A DNA stretch of 43,897 nt from Acidobacteriaceae bacterium (GTDB taxonomy: Bacteria; Acidobacteriota; Terriglobia; Terriglobales; Acidobacteriaceae): assembly GCA_030041515.1 (NCBI GenBank), contig JASHNS010000104.1, positions 1-43,897 on the forward strand, written 5' to 3'. A program made the translations under genes and the position numbers. Positions 30,546-37,788 of the stretch are shown here, piece by piece (position 1 is the stretch's first letter; every line of letters begins with the position of its first letter). Under the pieces are notes generated by a model. It was given only the letters and a program-made list of their open reading frames with translations. It was not told the origin of the DNA and made no database searches.

Positions 30546-31508
30546 TTATGCCTCCAGCAGCGAGCGGGCAAATGCCTCGCTGTCGAAGGGAAGCAGATCG
30601 TTCAAACCCTCGCCGATGCCGGCGAAGCGAACCGGCAGCTGCATCTCCCGCGCGATGGCAACGGCTATGCCGCCCTTTGCGGTTCCATCGAGTTTCGTGA
30701 GCACGATGCCGGTGACCCCGGCCGACTCCGTGAACAGCCGCGCCTGCTGCAGGCCGTTCTGCCCGGTGGTCGCATCCAGCACCAGCAGCACCTCATGGGG
30801 CGCATCGGGAATGATGCGCTGCGCCGTGCGCCGCATCTTGTCCAGCTCGGCCATCAGGCCGGTCTTCGTGTGCAGGCGTCCGGCGGTGTCGACGATGACG
30901 ACGTCGGTCTGGCGCGTCTTCGCCGCCTGGAGCGCATCGAAGAGGACCGCGGATGGATCGCCACCCTGTTTGGTGCGGATCATCTCCACGCCGCTGCGCT
31001 GCCCCCACACCTCGAGTTGTTCGATGGCGGCCGCGCGAAAAGTATCGGCGGCGCAGAGCAGAGCCGTCTTGCCGCGCGCGCGGTACCAGGCGGCCAGCTT
31101 GCCGCTGGTGGTGGTCTTGCCCGTTCCGTTCACGCCGACCATCATGATCACTTCCGGAGGCGCGCTCACCACAACCGGTTTGCGCGTGTTCTGATCCAGG
31201 ATTGCCCGGATCTGGTCCTTCAGCAATTCCCTCAGTTCCGCGCCATCGCGAATCTGCTGCCGCTTCGCATGCTCCCGCAGATTCGCGGTAATCTCCGTGG
31301 CTGTCGCCACGCCCAGGTCCGACGCGATCAGCGTCATCTCCAGTTCTTCCAGCGCCGTCTCGTCGATGGCACGCGCCATGGCCAGCACGTTATCCAGGTG
31401 CTCGCCGAGATTGTCGCGGGTTCTGGATACCGCCTTACGCATCCTGTCCAGGATGCTCAGGCTCTGCGGATCCTCTTCATTCAGGCTGCCAAACAACGTC
31501 TGGATCAT
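30546..31508 (-). CDS. ftsY: Signal recognition particle receptor FtsY
   Basis: A 320-residue SRP GTPase that docks ribosome-SRP complexes at the membrane. The four-helix N domain covers about residues 15-100. The G domain has G1 GVNGTGKTT (125-133), DTFRAAA (155-161), DTAGR (207-211) and TKLDGTAKGG near residue 275. The acidic N-terminal A domain of enteric FtsY is absent, as in many other phyla. The ATG has only a weak AGGGAAG about eleven bases upstream. A TAAACT box at 31542-31547 could be its -10. It heads the operon with ribD and ribE. The SRP RNA gene is also in this window, about 11 kb away. Confidence 0.96.
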   Translation of the reverse strand: MIQTLFGSLNEEDPQSLSILDRMRKAVSRTRDNLGEHLDNVLAMARAIDETALEELEMTLIASDLGVATATEITANLREHAKRQQIRDGAELRELLKDQIRAILDQNTRKPVVVSAPPEVIMMVGVNGTGKTTTSGKLAAWYRARGKTALLCAADTFRAAAIEQLEVWGQRSGVEMIRTKQGGDPSAVLFDALQAAKTRQTDVVIVDTAGRLHTKTGLMAELDKMRRTAQRIIPDAPHEVLLVLDATTGQNGLQQARLFTESAGVTGIVLTKLDGTAKGGIAVAIAREMQLPVRFAGIGEGLNDLLPFDSEAFARSLLEA

Positions 31509-31541
31509 GAAAACGGCTTCCCTGCCTCACTTCTCTTTTGC

Positions 31542-31547
31542 AGTTTA
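31542..31547 (-). promoter_or_regulatory. Candidate -10 box (TAAACT) for ftsY
   Basis: TAAACT on the minus strand lies in the 69-nt gap between the HD-domain gene and ftsY, 33 nt before the ftsY ATG. No strong -35 is seen. If real, ftsY-ribD-ribE has its own promoter. Confidence 0.3.
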
Positions 31548-31577
31548 TCGGATGAGGCTGCGGGCTCCTGTTCCGGA

Positions 31578-32630
31578 TCAGGCTGTCTCGACCATGGGCC
31601 GCCGCATACGGAACGATGCCGGAACGCGCATCGGCTTCACTTCCACGGCGCCGCTGCGCACCAGGATCGTGAGCGCGCTCACCACGGCCGGATCGTATCG
31701 TGTGCCGGCCAGCCGCTTCATGATGTCGAGCACGTATTCCGAATTCATCGCCGCCTGATACGGCCGCGGCGTGGTCATCGCGTCAAAGGAGTCCGCCACC
31801 GCGATGATCCTGGCCATCAGCGGGATCTCGTCCCCCTTCAGGCCGTAGGGATAGCCCATTCCGTCCAGAGATTCGTGATGCAGTTCGACGCCGGGGATCA
31901 GATCGTGCAGAAATTCGATCGGCCGCAGAATCGCCGCCCCCTTCACCGTGTGCGCTTTGATGATCTCGAACTCGTCGGGCGAAAGCGGGCCCTCCTTCGT
32001 GATGAGATAGTCCTCGATGCCCAGGGTACCGATGTCGTGCAGCATCGCGGCCAGGCGGACCTTCTCCACCTGCTTTTCATCCAGCCCCAGCTTTTCCGCG
32101 ATGGCCGCTGAGTACTGAGAAACGCGCTCCGAATGCCCGCGCAGATAGGTCGCGCGCTCGTCCACTGCCTTGGCCATCATGCGGATCAGTTCCGCCAGTG
32201 CCTGGTAATTGCGCCGCGCTTCGTCCTGCTTTTCCAGCCACCCTTCCTGCAGCGTGCGGACTGCGCCCTGCCAGGTGCGGATGACCTCGAGGAAGAGCTT
32301 GTCGGAAGTTTCGCGAACCAGTTCCTCGCCGACCTTCGGCGATCCCGCTCCGATGACATTCACCAGCTTCCGGACTCGGCTTTCAAACCGGCCGCTCCAG
32401 ATAAACGCCAGCAGAATGCTTCCGCCCAGGCCGGCTGCGGCTCCGGCTGCAACGATCGCGGCACGCGACGTTGTGGCTCCCGCTGTGAACCAGATGGCAA
32501 GCAGAGTGAGCGCAAGAACCACAAGGAGAGCGAGCGTCAGCCGTACAAACACACGACGGCGAATGCGTGGAACCGCAGCCACGTCCCCGTAAGGAGACGG
32601 TCGAACTGCGCGCCGGGGGGATTCCTCCAT
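31578..32630 (-). CDS. Membrane-anchored HD-GYP-like phosphohydrolase
   Basis: A 350-residue protein with two hydrophobic segments (about 30-49 and 58-77), a linker with helical character, and an HD domain (about 150-320). Metal ligands visible are His165 (RGHSERV), His198-Asp199 (LHDIG), His227 (AHTVKG), His251-His252 (HHESLDGMGYP) and Asp280 (VADSFDAMTT). The GYP motif is present at 259-261 and RPY follows, so it resembles HD-GYP cyclic-di-GMP phosphodiesterases. However, the usual HDIGK reads HDIGT (Thr202), where the lysine is conserved in active enzymes. Activity is therefore uncertain. The ATG has AGGAG about eleven bases upstream. A 289-nt gap before it, adjoining the gpsA 3' end, contains no gene I can support. 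Confidence 0.85.
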   Translation of the reverse strand: MEESPRRAVRPSPYGDVAAVPRIRRRVFVRLTLALLVVLALTLLAIWFTAGATTSRAAIVAAGAAAGLGGSILLAFIWSGRFESRVRKLVNVIGAGSPKVGEELVRETSDKLFLEVIRTWQGAVRTLQEGWLEKQDEARRNYQALAELIRMMAKAVDERATYLRGHSERVSQYSAAIAEKLGLDEKQVEKVRLAAMLHDIGTLGIEDYLITKEGPLSPDEFEIIKAHTVKGAAILRPIEFLHDLIPGVELHHESLDGMGYPYGLKGDEIPLMARIIAVADSFDAMTTPRPYQAAMNSEYVLDIMKRLAGTRYDPAVVSALTILVRSGAVEVKPMRVPASFRMRRPMVETA

Positions 32631-32919
32631 GCCTCTACTTTCTCCTGCTGCGCGATGGTGTTACGGGCGCTTTCACAGCCAGTTTACGGTCAGGGCCTGG
32701 CATATTCGTCACCCAAACGTGGTAGCAGTTACTTCCGATTGGGGGAAAACTTCGGGGTACACCGAGGTACCACAAACAGGTGGAAGCAGATGGAAGCAGG
32801 TTGCTGCTTTTGAGTCCCTCTTCCGATTCGGATGGCGCTGCAACGGAGCAGGCAAGGGCCTCCGGCATGCGGCCGGCTCCTGCAGAGATCAGCGGCGGAT
32901 GGATGGGCTTGAATCCCTG

Positions 32920-33927
32920 CTACTCGTCCCGGCCAGGGCGCAGCATCAGCTCCTCGATGGCTCGTTCCGGCGCTTTGCCATGGATGAGGATCGCCTCCAT
33001 CTGCTCGGCGATGGGCATTTCCACATGATGTTTGCGCGCCAGACCCAGCGCCGCGGACGTTGTCCGCACGCCTTCGGCTACCTGGCCACCCAGTCCGGCG
33101 AGCACTTCCCGCAGGCGCAGGCCCCGCCCAAGGCCCATACCCACCGTCCGGTTGCGCGAAAGTGATCCTGTGCAGGTCAGCACCAGATCGCCGACGCCGG
33201 ACAGCCCCGCGAGCGTCTCGCGCCGGCCACCACAGGCGACCGCGAGTCGGGTCATCTCCGCGATGCCCCGGGTAATCAGCGCGGCATTCGTGTTCAGGCC
33301 CAGTTCCAGCCCGGCGACAATGCCGGCGGCGATGGCAATGACGTTCTTGAGTGAGCCGCCCAGTTCCACGCCGACGACATCGTCATTGGTGTAGAGACGC
33401 AGGGATTTGCTGGAGAATTCGCGCTGCACCTGTGCGGCCAGATCGGCGTCCTGCGACGCAATGGTGATGGCGGTGGGGGCGCCTGCCGCGACCTCCTGCG
33501 CGAACGAGGGGCCACTGAGCGCGCCGAAAGGTAACGTGAGCCCGTGCTCGGCAAGAACCTGCGCGATGACCTGGCTCATGCGCAGGCTGGTCTCGTCCTC
33601 AATGCCCTTGGTGGCGCTCACCAGCGCCTGTCCGGGCCGCAGATGAGCAGCAAACCCGCGCACGGAGGAGCGAGTGAACTGCGACGGCGTAACGAGCACG
33701 ACTAATTCGGCGTCGCGCAGCGCCTCGGCCGGATCGTGCGTGGGAACAATCGCATCGGGCAGGCGGAATCCCGGCAGAAACGCGCTGTTTTCGCGCGTGG
33801 TGCGCATGGTTTCCGCCACTGGCTTCTCGAAGGACCACAGCGCGATCGCGTGTCCTCCGCGCCGCGCCAGGCTGATCGCAAGCGCTGTTCCCCACGCTCC
33901 GCTGCCCATCACCGCGATGCGTGTCAT
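32920..33927 (-). CDS. gpsA: Glycerol-3-phosphate dehydrogenase [NAD(P)+]
   Basis: A 335-residue enzyme that reduces dihydroxyacetone phosphate to glycerol-3-phosphate for phospholipid synthesis. The N-terminal Rossmann motif is MGSGAWGTALA (7-17). SATKGIEDET, GALSGPSFAQEV and the catalytic lysine region GVELGGSLKNVIAIAAGI follow, with GLSGVGDLVLTCTGSLSRNR in the C-terminal domain. All match GpsA. The ATG overlaps the plsY stop (ATGA), so translation is coupled; the product of gpsA is the acceptor for the PlsY reaction, making this a functional two-gene unit. Confidence 0.97.
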   Translation of the reverse strand: MTRIAVMGSGAWGTALAISLARRGGHAIALWSFEKPVAETMRTTRENSAFLPGFRLPDAIVPTHDPAEALRDAELVVLVTPSQFTRSSVRGFAAHLRPGQALVSATKGIEDETSLRMSQVIAQVLAEHGLTLPFGALSGPSFAQEVAAGAPTAITIASQDADLAAQVQREFSSKSLRLYTNDDVVGVELGGSLKNVIAIAAGIVAGLELGLNTNAALITRGIAEMTRLAVACGGRRETLAGLSGVGDLVLTCTGSLSRNRTVGMGLGRGLRLREVLAGLGGQVAEGVRTTSAALGLARKHHVEMPIAEQMEAILIHGKAPERAIEELMLRPGRDE

Positions 33928-34592
33928 AGGCTGGTGGTCCCTGTTGGTTTCACTCGGTTGCCGCCGAAACGGTACTCGCTGCCGCTGAGGAGCCTCGCAA
34001 TGTTCTGGTGGTGTTTGACGATCAGGGTAAGCGGGGCCAGAAAGAGCACCGCCGTGACCCAGGACGTGCGCTCAATCCTCAATGCGTCCGGCAGCAGCAG
34101 GGCAAACGCTGGAAATGCCGCGGCCGAGAGAATCGAACCCAGAGAAACGTAGCGGAAGATTGCGAATACGATGATGAAGACGCCCAGCGCGGCCAGCGCG
34201 GCCCACGGCGCGAGAGCCAGGAAGACACCGAAGGCGGTGGCCACCCCTTTGCCGCCCCTGAAGCCGAGCCAGACGGTGTAGACGTGGCCGAGGATGGCGC
34301 AAAGCGCGGCAAGCGCGACGACGTTGGCGCGCGGATCTGGCGGGAAGCCGGTTCGCCCCATCACGAATCCGCACAGAATGACGGCAAAAAAGCCCTTCAG
34401 AACATCCAGTACGAAGGTGAGCGCGCCCAGGCCTTTGGAGCCGGAGCGAATCACATTGGTCGCTCCTATGTTGCCGCTTCCCTTCTCGCGAATGTCTTCA
34501 TTGCGGACGAGCCGCACCAGCAGATAGCCGAACGGAATGGAACCCAGCAGATAGCCTGCGCATGCGGCCAGCACATAAGAAATCAGGGACAT
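33924..34592 (-). CDS. plsY: Acyl-phosphate:glycerol-3-phosphate acyltransferase
   Basis: A 222-residue membrane enzyme that acylates glycerol-3-phosphate at position 1 using acyl-phosphate. Five or more hydrophobic segments are visible. The three conserved loops are present: GSGNIGATNVIRSGSKGLG (about 38-56), LGFRGGKGVATAFG (about 109-122) and KHHQNIARLLSGSE near the C-terminus. The ATG is the one that starts the first membrane segment (MSLISYVLAACAGYLLGSIPFGYLL). A TAGACT box at 34603-34608 would put the transcript start only about four bases before it; a GTG nine codons earlier is the alternative. It is coupled to gpsA. Confidence 0.96.
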   Translation of the reverse strand: MSLISYVLAACAGYLLGSIPFGYLLVRLVRNEDIREKGSGNIGATNVIRSGSKGLGALTFVLDVLKGFFAVILCGFVMGRTGFPPDPRANVVALAALCAILGHVYTVWLGFRGGKGVATAFGVFLALAPWAALAALGVFIIVFAIFRYVSLGSILSAAAFPAFALLLPDALRIERTSWVTAVLFLAPLTLIVKHHQNIARLLSGSEYRFGGNRVKPTGTTSL

Positions 34593-34667
34593 TGCGCTTA
34601 CGAGTCTATCAGTTGGCACTCCGCGCCGCGGATGTTCTGGCCGCGATCTGTTCGCTCCTGATTCCTG

Positions 34668-36941
34668 TCACTGCACAGGGTGCGCCGTGCCGTTGGCGAT
34701 GGATTGCTGAATCATGCGTTCGATCTCAGGGTCGATGCTTCGCTCCTGCATTCTTTCCTGCGATTGCGCCAGCCGCCTTTGCATTTCGGCCATGCGCGCC
34801 TGCAGGTCGCGCGAGTTCCAGCGCGCCTGATCCTCCTGCATGCGCTTTTCTGCTTCGGCTATCCGTTGCTGCGCCTCCGCCATCCTGGCCTGCATCTGTG
34901 CCTGGGATTGTGCGTTCCACTGGGCCTGCTCTTTTTGTAGGGTCGCTTCCACCTGGGCGAGGTCCGCCTGCAGCTGGGCCTGCTTCTGCGGAGAGAGCCA
35001 TTGCTGAACCGATTTCATGCTGTCCTGGATCTGCTTCTGCATTTGCGCCATGCGCTCGGGACTGAACTGCGCCTGCGCAGCCTTCATCTCCGCCTGGTAT
35101 TGAGCCATGGACTGTACCCACTGCTGTTTGGAGTCGATCTGCGCTTTGGCCATCGCCGCCTGGGCCTGGGCCATCACCTCCGATACATTCGGAACGTCGA
35201 CCGTAAATTGCTGTTGCCCCATGACCGCGCCAATGGCCTGGATCATGCCTTCAATCCGGCCTACCGCTACCGGATCGGTGACGACGTACGATTTGCCGCC
35301 GCGGCTAAACCACAGGAACGGTCCGTTCGCCATGCGGTGCGCACGCTCTATATCGGCACGGCGGCTGGCGCTCAGGCTGCTGGGCAGATTCGCATCGCTC
35401 CACGTGCCGCTGGCGACCGCCCAGGCATTCCCATCCGTGGACGCGTGGTAATCGAAGTCACTGTTGGTCGATCCGTCGTGGTGCGTGGTGAGGATGGTCG
35501 TTCCCGAAGTGCGAGGCGATTGCCCGGTGCCGCTGTCCAGGGCATCCCCCTTTCCAGGCCGGAGCGGCGGAAGTGGAGGCAGCGGCGTTTGCGGAGCGCG
35601 GGCAGAAACCGTGGTCTGTTGCAAAACGGTAGTCTGTCGTTGTGTTGGGACTGGGATGGGTGCGGGCGCTGCCGCCGGCGGCGCCGGCGTGGGCGGCGCC
35701 TGTTGCATGGGCCCCGAGACCTGGTCTGCGTTCGGCGCCTGTCCTGGAAATGCCTGGCCGGTGCGCGGGGCCGCAGTCGGGGCTTGCGCAGGCCCGGCGC
35801 TGGACGGTGCCGCCTGGCCCGGTTGCTCTGGCGCCTGGGTGGGACCTGGGTTTGCAGGTACGGCCTGGGCCGCCGCGGCGGGAACGCGAATAAGAACGAC
35901 TGCCGCAAACAGGGCCACCGGAATCAGCAGCAGCGCGGCAAGCGCGCGACGGCGTCCTTCCGCAAAGGCGCTGCGGAAGCGGGACTCATTCAGCAGCGAG
36001 TCGATGCGGCGCGAAAGATTCCCTGAGCTGGCCATCGCGACGCCAGGCAGCCGTCGCCGCGGCATTGCGGCAAATTCAAGCACAACCTGCGCATATTCTG
36101 AGCCGCTCCGCGCAGCTTCCATGCCGGCGCGGTCGCTTATCGTCTCGCCCAGTTGCGCGAGCGTGCGCCGCAGATACCAGCCCAGCGGACTAAACCAGAA
36201 CGCCGCTGTGTAAAGCCCGGCCAGCAACTGCAGCCAGAAATCCATTTGCCGCACATGTGAGCGCTCATGCGCCAACACCATGCGCAGACGGTCGCGGTCC
36301 CATTGTGCGTAGTCAGCCGGCAGGACCACCCCCGCGCCGACGGTTACCGGCGATGCAATTCTGTTGCTGGTGCGGACGCTGCCCACCGGCGCGATCAGCG
36401 GAGAGACCGGCGCGGCGGTTGCCCACAGGCGTAGCGCCGCCGCGAGGCCGGCGAGCAGCCGGAGGAGCAGCGCAGCCGCCATAACAAGATAAAGCCAAAT
36501 GACTGCCTGGGCGATCGACGGCCAGGTGAATCTGCGTGCGGAAGCCGCCGGAGAAGCCGCCGGGATGGCAGGCGCGCCGACGGTCACCAGCGCGTCATCC
36601 CCCGGCGGGAGCGATTCGGCGGATGCGTCCACTGACCATGCGGTACCCGGCGAAGCCAACGTGGTTCGGGTGGCACGCTGCGCTGTCAGGGCGGGCACGG
36701 CGGATCGAGCCGGAATGCTTTCGCTCGTCGCGATCGGCACCGCCCATGCCATCCTGGCGCGCAAGCCGGCCAGCAGAGGCCAATGGATCAGCAGAGGCAT
36801 GGCGATGGACGCGGCCAGCACCAGGGTCCATGCCGCTTTGCGGGCCGGGACGTGCTTCACCCGGAGCAGGCTGAGGCCCGCTCCCACAACCGCAGCGAAG
36901 AGCAATCCCCGCAGCGCCGATTCGATAATCAGGGCCGTCAT
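34668..36941 (-). CDS. M56 family (BlaR1-like) membrane metallopeptidase with coiled-coil tail
   Basis: A 757-residue protein. The N-terminal membrane part (about 1-350) has four or more hydrophobic segments and the zinc motif His225-Glu226-Arg-Ser-His229 with a downstream LGETISDRAG (Glu266), as in BlaR1/MecR1 sensor peptidases. After the last membrane segment (about 332-352) comes a long proline/alanine/glutamine-rich linker (about 355-470). Next is a conserved region (about 480-590, with GPFLWFSRGGKSYVVTDP) and a methionine/glutamine-rich coiled coil (about 590-740). There is no penicillin-binding domain, so the signal sensed is not a beta-lactam in the BlaR1 manner. The ATG has AAGGAG eight bases upstream and overlaps the blaI stop. 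In the known system the peptidase triggers loss of the BlaI repressor; that is presumed here. Confidence 0.9.
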   Translation of the reverse strand: MTALIIESALRGLLFAAVVGAGLSLLRVKHVPARKAAWTLVLAASIAMPLLIHWPLLAGLRARMAWAVPIATSESIPARSAVPALTAQRATRTTLASPGTAWSVDASAESLPPGDDALVTVGAPAIPAASPAASARRFTWPSIAQAVIWLYLVMAAALLLRLLAGLAAALRLWATAAPVSPLIAPVGSVRTSNRIASPVTVGAGVVLPADYAQWDRDRLRMVLAHERSHVRQMDFWLQLLAGLYTAAFWFSPLGWYLRRTLAQLGETISDRAGMEAARSGSEYAQVVLEFAAMPRRRLPGVAMASSGNLSRRIDSLLNESRFRSAFAEGRRRALAALLLIPVALFAAVVLIRVPAAAAQAVPANPGPTQAPEQPGQAAPSSAGPAQAPTAAPRTGQAFPGQAPNADQVSGPMQQAPPTPAPPAAAPAPIPVPTQRQTTVLQQTTVSARAPQTPLPPLPPLRPGKGDALDSGTGQSPRTSGTTILTTHHDGSTNSDFDYHASTDGNAWAVASGTWSDANLPSSLSASRRADIERAHRMANGPFLWFSRGGKSYVVTDPVAVGRIEGMIQAIGAVMGQQQFTVDVPNVSEVMAQAQAAMAKAQIDSKQQWVQSMAQYQAEMKAAQAQFSPERMAQMQKQIQDSMKSVQQWLSPQKQAQLQADLAQVEATLQKEQAQWNAQSQAQMQARMAEAQQRIAEAEKRMQEDQARWNSRDLQARMAEMQRRLAQSQERMQERSIDPEIERMIQQSIANGTAHPVQ

Positions 36942-37345
36942 GCTTTGTCTCCTTCCTGCTTTTTCGCCGCGGCGATGCGGCGTGCCAGGCGCTCGAGTTC
37001 GGCGCGGCTCACCACTTTCGAGTCCACCATGCCGACCAGCAGATCCTCCACGGAACCCGCGCAGAACCAGTCCACAATGCGCTGCACCGCGCGCCCGGCG
37101 ACCCGCTGGCGCGATTCCGACGGACGGTAGATAAAGGTGCGGTTGTCGAGCGAGTGCTCGAGGTACCCCTTCTCTTCCAGCCGCCGCAGAACCGTGCGGA
37201 TGGTCGAGTCTTTCAGGGGGCGGTCGAGCTCTTCGCGCACCTGGTCCGCGCTGGCATCGGCTCTGCGCCAGACAATGCCAAGAACTTCGCGCTCGAGTTC
37301 GCCAAGTTCCGCCGGATCGTGATGAGGCTGACTGTTACGCGCCAT
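36938..37345 (-). CDS. BlaI/MecI/CopY family transcriptional repressor
   Basis: A 135-residue winged-helix repressor. The N-terminal DNA-binding domain (about 13-78) has LGELEREVLGIVWRRADASADQVREEL followed by KDSTIRTVLRRLEEKGYLEHS and the wing NRTFIYRPSES. The C-terminal helical dimerisation region (about 80-130) includes FCAGSVEDLLVGMVDSKVVSRAELERL, the usual BlaI ending. The stop overlaps the start of the M56 gene (ATGA), so the pair is one transcription unit. A perfect palindrome begins one base before its ATG and lies over the expected promoter, which argues for self-repression. No ribosome-binding site is visible, so the message may have a very short leader. The regulated genes beyond this pair are unknown. 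Confidence 0.94.
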   Translation of the reverse strand: MARNSQPHHDPAELGELEREVLGIVWRRADASADQVREELDRPLKDSTIRTVLRRLEEKGYLEHSLDNRTFIYRPSESRQRVAGRAVQRIVDWFCAGSVEDLLVGMVDSKVVSRAELERLARRIAAAKKQEGDKA

Positions 37346-37346
37346 A

Positions 37347-37365
37347 GTGTTACCAACGGTAACAC
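37347..37365. promoter_or_regulatory. Palindromic operator of the blaI-M56 operon
   Basis: GTGTTACC-AAC-GGTAACAC is a perfect 19-nt palindrome with 8-bp arms, one base upstream of the blaI ATG. With the -35 at 37381-37386, the expected -10 position falls inside it. It resembles in size and placement the operators of BlaI/MecI repressors, although the TTAC/GTAA core differs from the TACA/TGTA of the staphylococcal sites. I see no second copy in this window. Confidence 0.75.
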
Positions 37366-37380
37366 ATAAGACGGGACGGC

Positions 37381-37386
37381 TGTCAA
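37381..37386 (-). promoter_or_regulatory. Consensus -35 element (TTGACA) of the blaI promoter
   Basis: A perfect TTGACA on the minus strand; with a 17-nt spacer the -10 would be GTTACC (37358-37363), a poor hexamer that lies within the palindromic operator. Confidence 0.55.
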
Positions 37387-37509
37387 GAAACTGGGCGGAA
37401 AACTTTAGCCGGACTCAGGATTGCCGCCGGCTGTTGCGGAACCGGCAGGCGCAGGCGCGCGTAGGATCGATTGCACCCCCCCACCATCCGGAATGGAGGC
37501 TCTGCCGCT

Positions 37510-37788
37510 ATGCGGGAACCAATCCTGAGGGTATTCCTGGTTTTCGATGGCTTGCTCTTTCTCGCCGCCGTCTACCCCATCGCAACTTCTCTGTGGAATC
37601 CGGCGAAGGCCGGCGAAATTATGATGCTCAGCCTCTACTGTGCGCTTGGCGTCTTCCTGCTGCTCGCCGTGCACACACCCTCAGAGCATCGCAGCCTGAT
37701 TGCTTTTGCCGGATGGGGCAACATCGCGCATGGATGTGTGATGGCCCTGATGGCGATCAAAATGACCGCGCGGACCGCGGAGAGCTGA
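37510..37788 (+). CDS. Small membrane protein (DUF6632-like), first part of a split gene
   Basis: A 92-residue product beginning with the sequence REPILRVFLVFDGLLFLAAV after its Met, with three hydrophobic segments (about 6-24, 38-54 and 63-83) and MLSLYCALGVFLLLAVHTPSEHRSLIAF in the middle, which I associate with the DUF6632 family of about 130 residues. The function is unknown. GGAGG lies about eleven bases before the ATG. The reading frame ends TARTAES, then the next segment with the expected character (GELMGAALACLVVGVPLLVLLPRK) continues in the -1 frame. The family length and C-terminal hydrophobic segment suggest that the ancestral gene ran through, so this is either a frameshift mutation, a sequence error, or a coupled pair. 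Confidence 0.7.
   Translation: MREPILRVFLVFDGLLFLAAVYPIATSLWNPAKAGEIMMLSLYCALGVFLLLAVHTPSEHRSLIAFAGWGNIAHGCVMALMAIKMTARTAES

Follow-up and report, generated by a model that had tools for sequence, protein, structure and literature searches.

A probable BlaR1/BlaI-type proteolytic switch with a non-penicillin exported module in an Acidobacteriaceae bacterium

Contig JASHNS010000104.1 of an Acidobacteriaceae bacterium from soil (assembly GCA_030041515.1), of which positions 1 to 43,897 form the window analyzed here, carries an open and complete reading frame of 757 amino acids (positions 34668–36941, minus strand) that encodes a membrane peptidase of the M56 family, hereafter the M56 receptor, directly next to a gene for a BlaI-type repressor. 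We conclude that this pair probably constitutes a self-regulating proteolytic switch of the BlaR1/BlaI type, in which the sensor has been replaced by an exported module that reads an envelope signal other than penicillin. The grounds are sequence, conservation and gene order: the pairing of BlaI with M56, the intact zinc site, the conserved operator and the portability of the module. Among receptors that act by cleaving a repressor, BlaR1 is the classical example, known from its response to β-lactams; with its defined motif, its operator and named relatives such as Silvibacterium bohemicum and Lysobacter spongiae, the present system makes non-antibiotic signals of M56/BlaI switches directly testable. 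While the engine of the system, M56 and BlaI, is known, its outer part is unnamed and represents a candidate new domain family for annotation.

Peptidase, repressor and operator

A preliminary description made from the DNA alone had proposed a BlaR1-like M56 membrane peptidase, and this assignment, derived here from the list of open reading frames, the translation and Pfam, is borne out: Residues 135–314 of the M56 receptor (positions 36000–36539; like all genes and protein segments of the window given below, on the minus strand unless stated otherwise) match Peptidase_M56 (PF05569) with an E-value of 5e-15 and 55.9 bits, above the gathering cut-off of 31, the HERSH...E...D signature is intact, and a BlaI gene overlaps. 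In an alignment of 19 rows comprising the 757-residue protein and 18 relatives, H225, E226, H229, D234, E266 and D270 are invariant; as the rows had been chosen for an HExxH ahead of the module motif, the informative invariants are D234, E266 and D270. A profile of the M56 rows aligns HExxH, the Asp, the E...D pair and a Tyr with Staphylococcus aureus BlaR1 (E 1.5e-11), thereby placing the HERSH zinc motif (residues 225–229, positions 36255–36269) opposite HEYAH of BlaR1. When the full model of the receptor, computed with AlphaFold2 (AF2), was searched with Foldseek, 72 matches were obtained, of which three reached E ≤0.001; all three are BlaR1 entries, with 8exs_A as the best PDB match (E 3.8e-5). 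The NCBIfam model blaR1_generic reaches 34 bits over residues 189–349 only and thus misses its cut-off of 400 bits. The HERSH-type motif had been expected to persist in homologues, and it does: Among 43 scanned loci, every module-bearing frame long enough to hold M56 has HExxH; the frames without HExxH are fragments or short genes of the stand-alone kind.

Four hydrophobic helices are found in the receptor, the last at residues 333–351. Since five Lys/Arg residues flank this helix on its N-terminal side and one follows it, the C-terminal tail of about 400 residues is predicted to lie outside, in agreement with the earlier placement of the C-terminus outside the cytoplasm; the export-like starts of stand-alone copies of the module, described below, support the same location for the fused form.

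The adjacent gene (positions 36938–37345) encodes a repressor of 135 residues which matches PF03965 (E 2.2e-28, 99.3 bits, gathering cut-off 22.6) as well as MecI and BlaI structures; its stop overlaps the M56 start by 4 bp (ATGA). This pairing recurs: Of 34 distinct loci that have M56 and module in one frame, 32 also have BlaI as a neighboring frame in the same orientation; it is missing from L173 and from L081, where the contig breaks off. The 34 derive from 43 scanned loci after exclusion of five with stand-alone modules, of L065, whose frame is split and which does have BlaI, of L069, which meets a contig end, and of one member in each duplicate pair (L080/L177 and L075/L088); in L070, BlaI and M56 share a single open frame that contains unread bases. 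All of these loci were found via the module, so that the count says nothing of M56 proteins without it. A comparison by eye gave no support for co-variation of the receptor loop with the BlaI cut site, as the loop keeps Met while BlaI varies between Met and Leu.

A putative BlaI operator, the palindrome GTGTTAC-N5-GTAACAC (positions 37347–37365), lies one base before the blaI ATG. Among 17 Acidobacteriaceae loci, 12 have it exactly, four with one mismatch and one with two, and its arms average 97% majority base, as against 52% in the stretch 21–60 bases upstream. In a comparison that left out L002, L003, L033, L088, L091 and L095 as duplicates, related sequence stands at the same spot in the distant loci L012, L013 and L017. 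Moreover, all 17 loci have GTAAC in blaI codons 3–4 (positions 37334–37338), despite a change between Arg and Ser at residue 3, which suggests a third half-site, possibly for a second BlaI dimer. In a search of 13 genomes, nine of them from the host genus, an exact copy was found at blaI in all seven of these nine that have the system, and no exact copy in the two without it (G001, G003).

The preliminary description had proposed to define the BlaI regulon from its operator motif. The operator was found; the wider regulon was not. In the host genome the palindrome before blaI is the only exact copy, and degenerate sites with up to two mismatches fall below their reversed controls, with 3 sites versus 8 for the long palindrome and 52 versus 164 for the shorter pattern GTTACCNNNGGTAAC. 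The detectable regulon is therefore this operon itself, with additional, degenerate targets possible. The shorter pattern has one other exact copy, located behind an rpsT-like gene (L034, named by eye), which was taken as chance. One further genome, G002, has a second exact palindrome (L164:2622-2640), which precedes the gene of a MacB-like permease by about 80 bp. Comparable permeases, recognized by eye, follow M56 in L074 and L078; MacB-like permeases are common in the phylum.

The predicted exported module

The exported region of about 400 residues had been described as free of a penicillin-binding domain, and indeed no match to one was obtained at E-values up to 1 in Pfam and NCBIfam. It begins with the Pro/Ala/Gln linker that had been noted at the outset (residues 353–480, positions 35502–35885), whose 23% Pro, 20% Ala and 12.5% Gln coincide with predicted local distance difference test (pLDDT) values mostly below 50, that is, with disorder in the AF2 model. 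There follows, from about residue 481, a predicted head (residues 481–577, positions 35211–35501; profile, alignment and AF2) that places a helix between two hairpins. Of these, the second carries FLWFxxxGKSYxVxDP and contains the segment GPFLWFSRGGKSYVVTDP (residues 540–557, positions 35271–35324; profile and alignment), for which conservation had been claimed: The W, G, K, S, Y, D and P of this GPFLWF..VVTDP segment are invariant across 20 ectodomains. Helices then span residues 557–750 and a last strand residues 753–755 (positions 34677–34685; AF2/DSSP), where the Gly of a GxA motif is invariant and the Ala nearly so in the 20 rows. The ectodomain model built from these rows has a mean pLDDT of 73, with about 80 in the first half of the head, 90–95 in its second half and 91–96 at the C-terminal end. 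Because a DSSP strand needs a partner and all other strands lie in or before the head, the closing strand is modeled as returning to a head strand, and the helical arm would thus fold back onto the head.

The arm itself (residues 586–750, positions 34692–35186) is helical in the AF2 model and contains 24% Gln and 8.5% Met. It had been called a Gln/Met-rich coiled coil, of which the composition and the helix stand and the heptads, in this copy, do not: With Ala excluded, the hydrophobic periodicity beats 1000 of 1000 shuffles at a best period of 3.74, with Ala counted there is no signal (p 0.75), and power at exactly 3.5 lies below the shuffle mean. The coiled coil is thus supported in part, as the arm of this copy is an amphipathic helix without heptads. 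Repeats of the LGxQQ type (LGx[QEMR][QEM], 2–7 copies) occur in 16 of 18 aligned relatives, and in five (L005, L007, L010, L077, L080) the power at period 3.5 is at least four times the shuffle mean, a ratio given without p-value. Metal binding by a Met-rich arm is disfavored by the same alignment, in which many relatives have LGxQQ-type repeats instead. In five close pairs, ratios of nonsynonymous to synonymous divergence (dN/dS), obtained by a simple count with synonymous divergence high and reaching 0.73 of sites in one pair, are 0.10–0.26 for the head and 0.10–0.20 for the coil, compared to 0.45–0.63 for the outer loop 63–139. The module is under constraint, and the present copy is a diverging one.

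Family searches left this part without a name. Residues 481–757 match no Pfam or NCBIfam family at E 0.01, the weak matches being DnaK-like (E 0.23) and an SMC-like coil (E 0.78), and no wall-binding family in Pfam matched the 757-residue protein. Of 23 module proteins, 15 are matched by M56; among the matches listed, which for NCBIfam comprise 25 of 32 rows and come without positions along the proteins, the other main recurring families are M48/HtpX, BlaR1/MecR1 and SMC-type coils. With VIA, the best Z of the ectodomain was 6.6, on helices, a kind of match that the tool rates as common. The system had been put forward as uncharacterized, in line with the open-license literature, where no account of the module appeared among the matches listed.

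To map the distribution, a profile of 21 rows covering the head and first helix was used. It gave at least 16 matches in at least 14 of 396 genomes of the host phylum and at least seven matches in at least seven of 349 genomes of the phylum of the Lysobacter genome G448, these being lower bounds as at most 13 and 15 candidates per genome, respectively, were scored. An M56-type HExxH is in frame in all seven matches from the Lysobacter phylum and in nine of the 16 from the host phylum. The ninth of these frames (L087:7647-11033) combines the M56-type motif, tetratricopeptide repeats and a weak module match with an adjacent BlaI. A further six of the 16 matches fall in short proteins that have no M56, among them L113, which also lacks the long arm; L115, a DUF4412-like protein with a hairpin like that of the module (E 8e-5), is doubtful and likely due to chance or convergence. 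A scan of named genomes yielded 21 loci. Carriers comprise Acidobacteriaceae and Acidobacterium metagenome-assembled genomes (MAGs), Silvibacterium bohemicum, Lysobacter aestuarii, L. spongiae, a Janthinobacterium MAG and a Bryobacteraceae MAG; a tblastn search of plasmids with residues 480–757 gave no match at E 1e-3.

A tree of 53 M56 cores, 35 of them module-bearing, requires the module to change four times between presence and absence, and the grouping of all module-bearing cores in one clade is rejected by the approximately unbiased (AU) test (p 0.0004), which was made after the tree had been seen, with module labels set beforehand. One core, L008, whose frame is split between linker and module on a draft contig, was counted as module-bearing in the tree and is absent from the alignments. 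The four changes and the rejection imply that the module was gained, lost or exchanged more than once: The head–arm unit is portable and is found on several separate M56 lineages.

Furthermore, the module exists without M56. In two species of one genus (L084:7531-8268 and L086:7097-7834), a module protein starts with a hydrophobic run ending in LAAC, a lipobox by eye, and 8 bases after its stop an OmpR-type response regulator begins, followed by a HAMP/HisKA/HATPase kinase; the module-like gene of a further species in this genus (L085) has no such neighbors. Another stand-alone gene (L178:4958-5557) precedes hrcA-grpE-dnaK by about 170 bp in the same orientation, and L083 holds two module genes in tandem. 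Short stand-alone homologues have signal-peptide-like or lipobox starts as judged by eye, and no BlaI match occurs in any of the five loci within the 11–17 kb covered. In the form of L084 and L086, a lipoprotein-like gene immediately ahead of a response regulator and kinase, the module resembles NlpE, CpxP and Spy, which serve two-component systems as accessory sensors of the lipoprotein or periplasmic kind; it differs in having no family match, NlpE itself appearing in Foldseek at E-values of 0.88–2.2, which are not significant. We tentatively raise the possibility, which we hold to be less probable than the switch itself, that the unit of head, arm and closing strand is an undescribed envelope-sensing domain of at least two phyla, repeatedly joined to M56/BlaI receptors by fusion and to histidine-kinase systems as a lipoprotein partner, with shedding by signal peptidase as the reset. 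If so, one ligand-reading part has been reused across two unrelated transmembrane signaling machines.

Proposed mechanism and rival explanations

With topology and fold taken from prediction, and the signal, its transmission, BlaI cleavage and shedding inferred, the switch might operate as follows. BlaI would bind the palindrome at the blaI start and keep blaI-M56 low, and in this genus perhaps also plsY-gpsA by way of read-through. The M56 protein would be embedded in the inner membrane, its zinc site facing the cytoplasm and its flexible linker carrying the small β/α head and the long helical arm into the periplasm, where head or arm would meet the signal, most likely an envelope change or else an envelope protein or polymer. 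The resulting change would be transmitted via the membrane helices to the zinc site, which would cut BlaI and so open the operon. Finally, cleavage by signal peptidase at AxA|Q, behind the last helix, may shed the module and reset the receptor, as in BlaR1. An envelope-stress or cell-wall contact signal had been called plausible earlier. It gains indirect support from the stand-alone copies beside a kinase pair in two species and near a heat-shock operon in one, which are few cases.

The nearest known counterparts are the BlaR1/MecR1 and BlaI/MecI systems of Staphylococcus and Bacillus licheniformis, which share with the present pair the HExxH with an Asp at +9, a Glu at +41 and E-xxx-D, a last membrane helix before the outside domain, an adjacent repressor, a palindrome at the start of the repressor gene and, in the case of BlaR1, a possible signal-peptidase site followed by Gln. 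In a cryo-EM paper on BlaR1, direct BlaI cleavage, autocleavage and coupling of sensor motion to the protease are described (PMC9834060). In contrast to BlaR1/MecR1, the outside domain of the M56 receptor is not penicillin-binding, and no resistance gene with an exact operator was found in the host genome.

Several observations weigh against the proposed switch. The TM-scores of the BlaR1 structural matches are low, at 0.19–0.27 across whole chains, and the ectodomain has none of its 244 Foldseek matches in the PDB at E ≤0.001; the fold of residues 480–757, whose prediction had been called for, was obtained as head, helices and closing strand, with no known structure matched at that threshold. 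At the would-be repressor cut site, where MecI and BlaI have Asn-Phe, this BlaI and its counterparts have Gly-Met or Gly-Leu, and the cryo-EM paper calls the Phe almost invariant (PMC9834060). The distant BlaI-M56 locus L082 has no such palindrome, and a promoter scan of positions 31400–37600 found no sigma-70-like site. The present copy has diverged: It has no LGxQQ repeats, and compared with its nearest relative dN/dS is about 0.42 in the head and 0.29 in the coil, at high synonymous divergence. With at least 14 of 396 sampled phylum genomes, the module is not part of a core system, and the link to plsY-gpsA is seen inside the genus only.

Two rivals are unlikely to a similar degree. In the first, the module is a product and not a sensor: The last helix would be an internal signal peptide, and cutting at AxA|Q (last helix and signal-peptidase-like site, residues 333–360, positions 35862–35945) would release head and arm into the periplasm. 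The order RRR, hydrophobic run, [AV]xA|Q recurs in eight of eight same-genus rows, stand-alone exported forms exist, and SpsB cuts BlaR1 at the equivalent place, Gly331|Gln332, an event that is read as turnover and not as delivery (PMC9834060). Outside the genus, G|Q stands at that site in three of 11 rows; an AxA|Q could arise by chance in so Ala-rich a stretch, and cleavage there is suggested by the BlaR1 precedent. The BlaI pairing and the operator point to a switch instead. In the second rival, which we regard as equally improbable, the receptor is a mechanical or contact sensor whose arm reaches the peptidoglycan or the outer membrane and whose protease is activated by stretch or lost contact. 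A long helical arm on a Pro-rich tether would suit such a device, as would the variation from head end to C-terminus of 136–224 residues among relatives that retain head and closing strand. However, the predicted pairing of the closing strand with the head suggests a folded-back arm and not an anchored rod, and no wall-binding family matched the protein.

Far less credible is that BlaI answers a signal from inside, as CopY does, with M56 only tuning the response and the outer module not sensing at all. The best NCBIfam match of the repressor is indeed CopY_TcrY (TIGR02698), but its 61 bits are far below the cut-off of 121.95, the cysteine cluster of CopY is absent from a repressor with one Cys, and the head is conserved and portable; CopY-like copper control is rejected on account of that cut-off. 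An ordinary β-lactam sensor, which BlaR1-type peptidase and BlaI might call to mind, we consider very improbable and reject, as no penicillin-binding domain is matched at E-values up to 1 and no second exact operator occurs in the genome.

Neighboring genes and further M56 loci

Downstream of the M56 receptor lie plsY (positions 33924–34619) and, overlapping it, gpsA (positions 32920–33927). The M56 stop is separated from the plsY ATG by 75 bp without a terminator-like site, so that read-through into plsY may be possible. All eight same-genus loci whose flanks are long enough (L062–L068, L073) share the gene order cinA-blaI-M56-plsY-gpsA-HD-GYP. Three further genera of the family have cinA near plsY-gpsA with no blaI-M56 match between them; the two inspected carry a 2'-5' RNA ligase-like gene (by eye) at that place. 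M56 loci outside the genus have other neighbors and no plsY within the available flank. We read the position of blaI-M56 beside plsY as one insertion and not as proof of lipid control; phospholipid-synthesis control as the purpose of the system is weakened by this restriction to the genus. In G003 (L160), a histidine kinase, preceded by a response-regulator-like frame (by eye), occupies the blaI-M56 place beside plsY-gpsA.

M56-BlaI pairs are also known outside staphylococci from mycobacterial BlaR/BlaI (Rv1845c/Rv1846c). The host genome contains one other M56 match (G000:C6, L001:946-2307), which likewise has an adjacent BlaI-like gene and differs in its TonB-like C-terminus, recognized by eye, and in an M56 that is distant in the tree. 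Finally, a small DUF6632 membrane protein (E 3e-8) is encoded between blaI and cinA at positions 37471–37788 on the plus strand.

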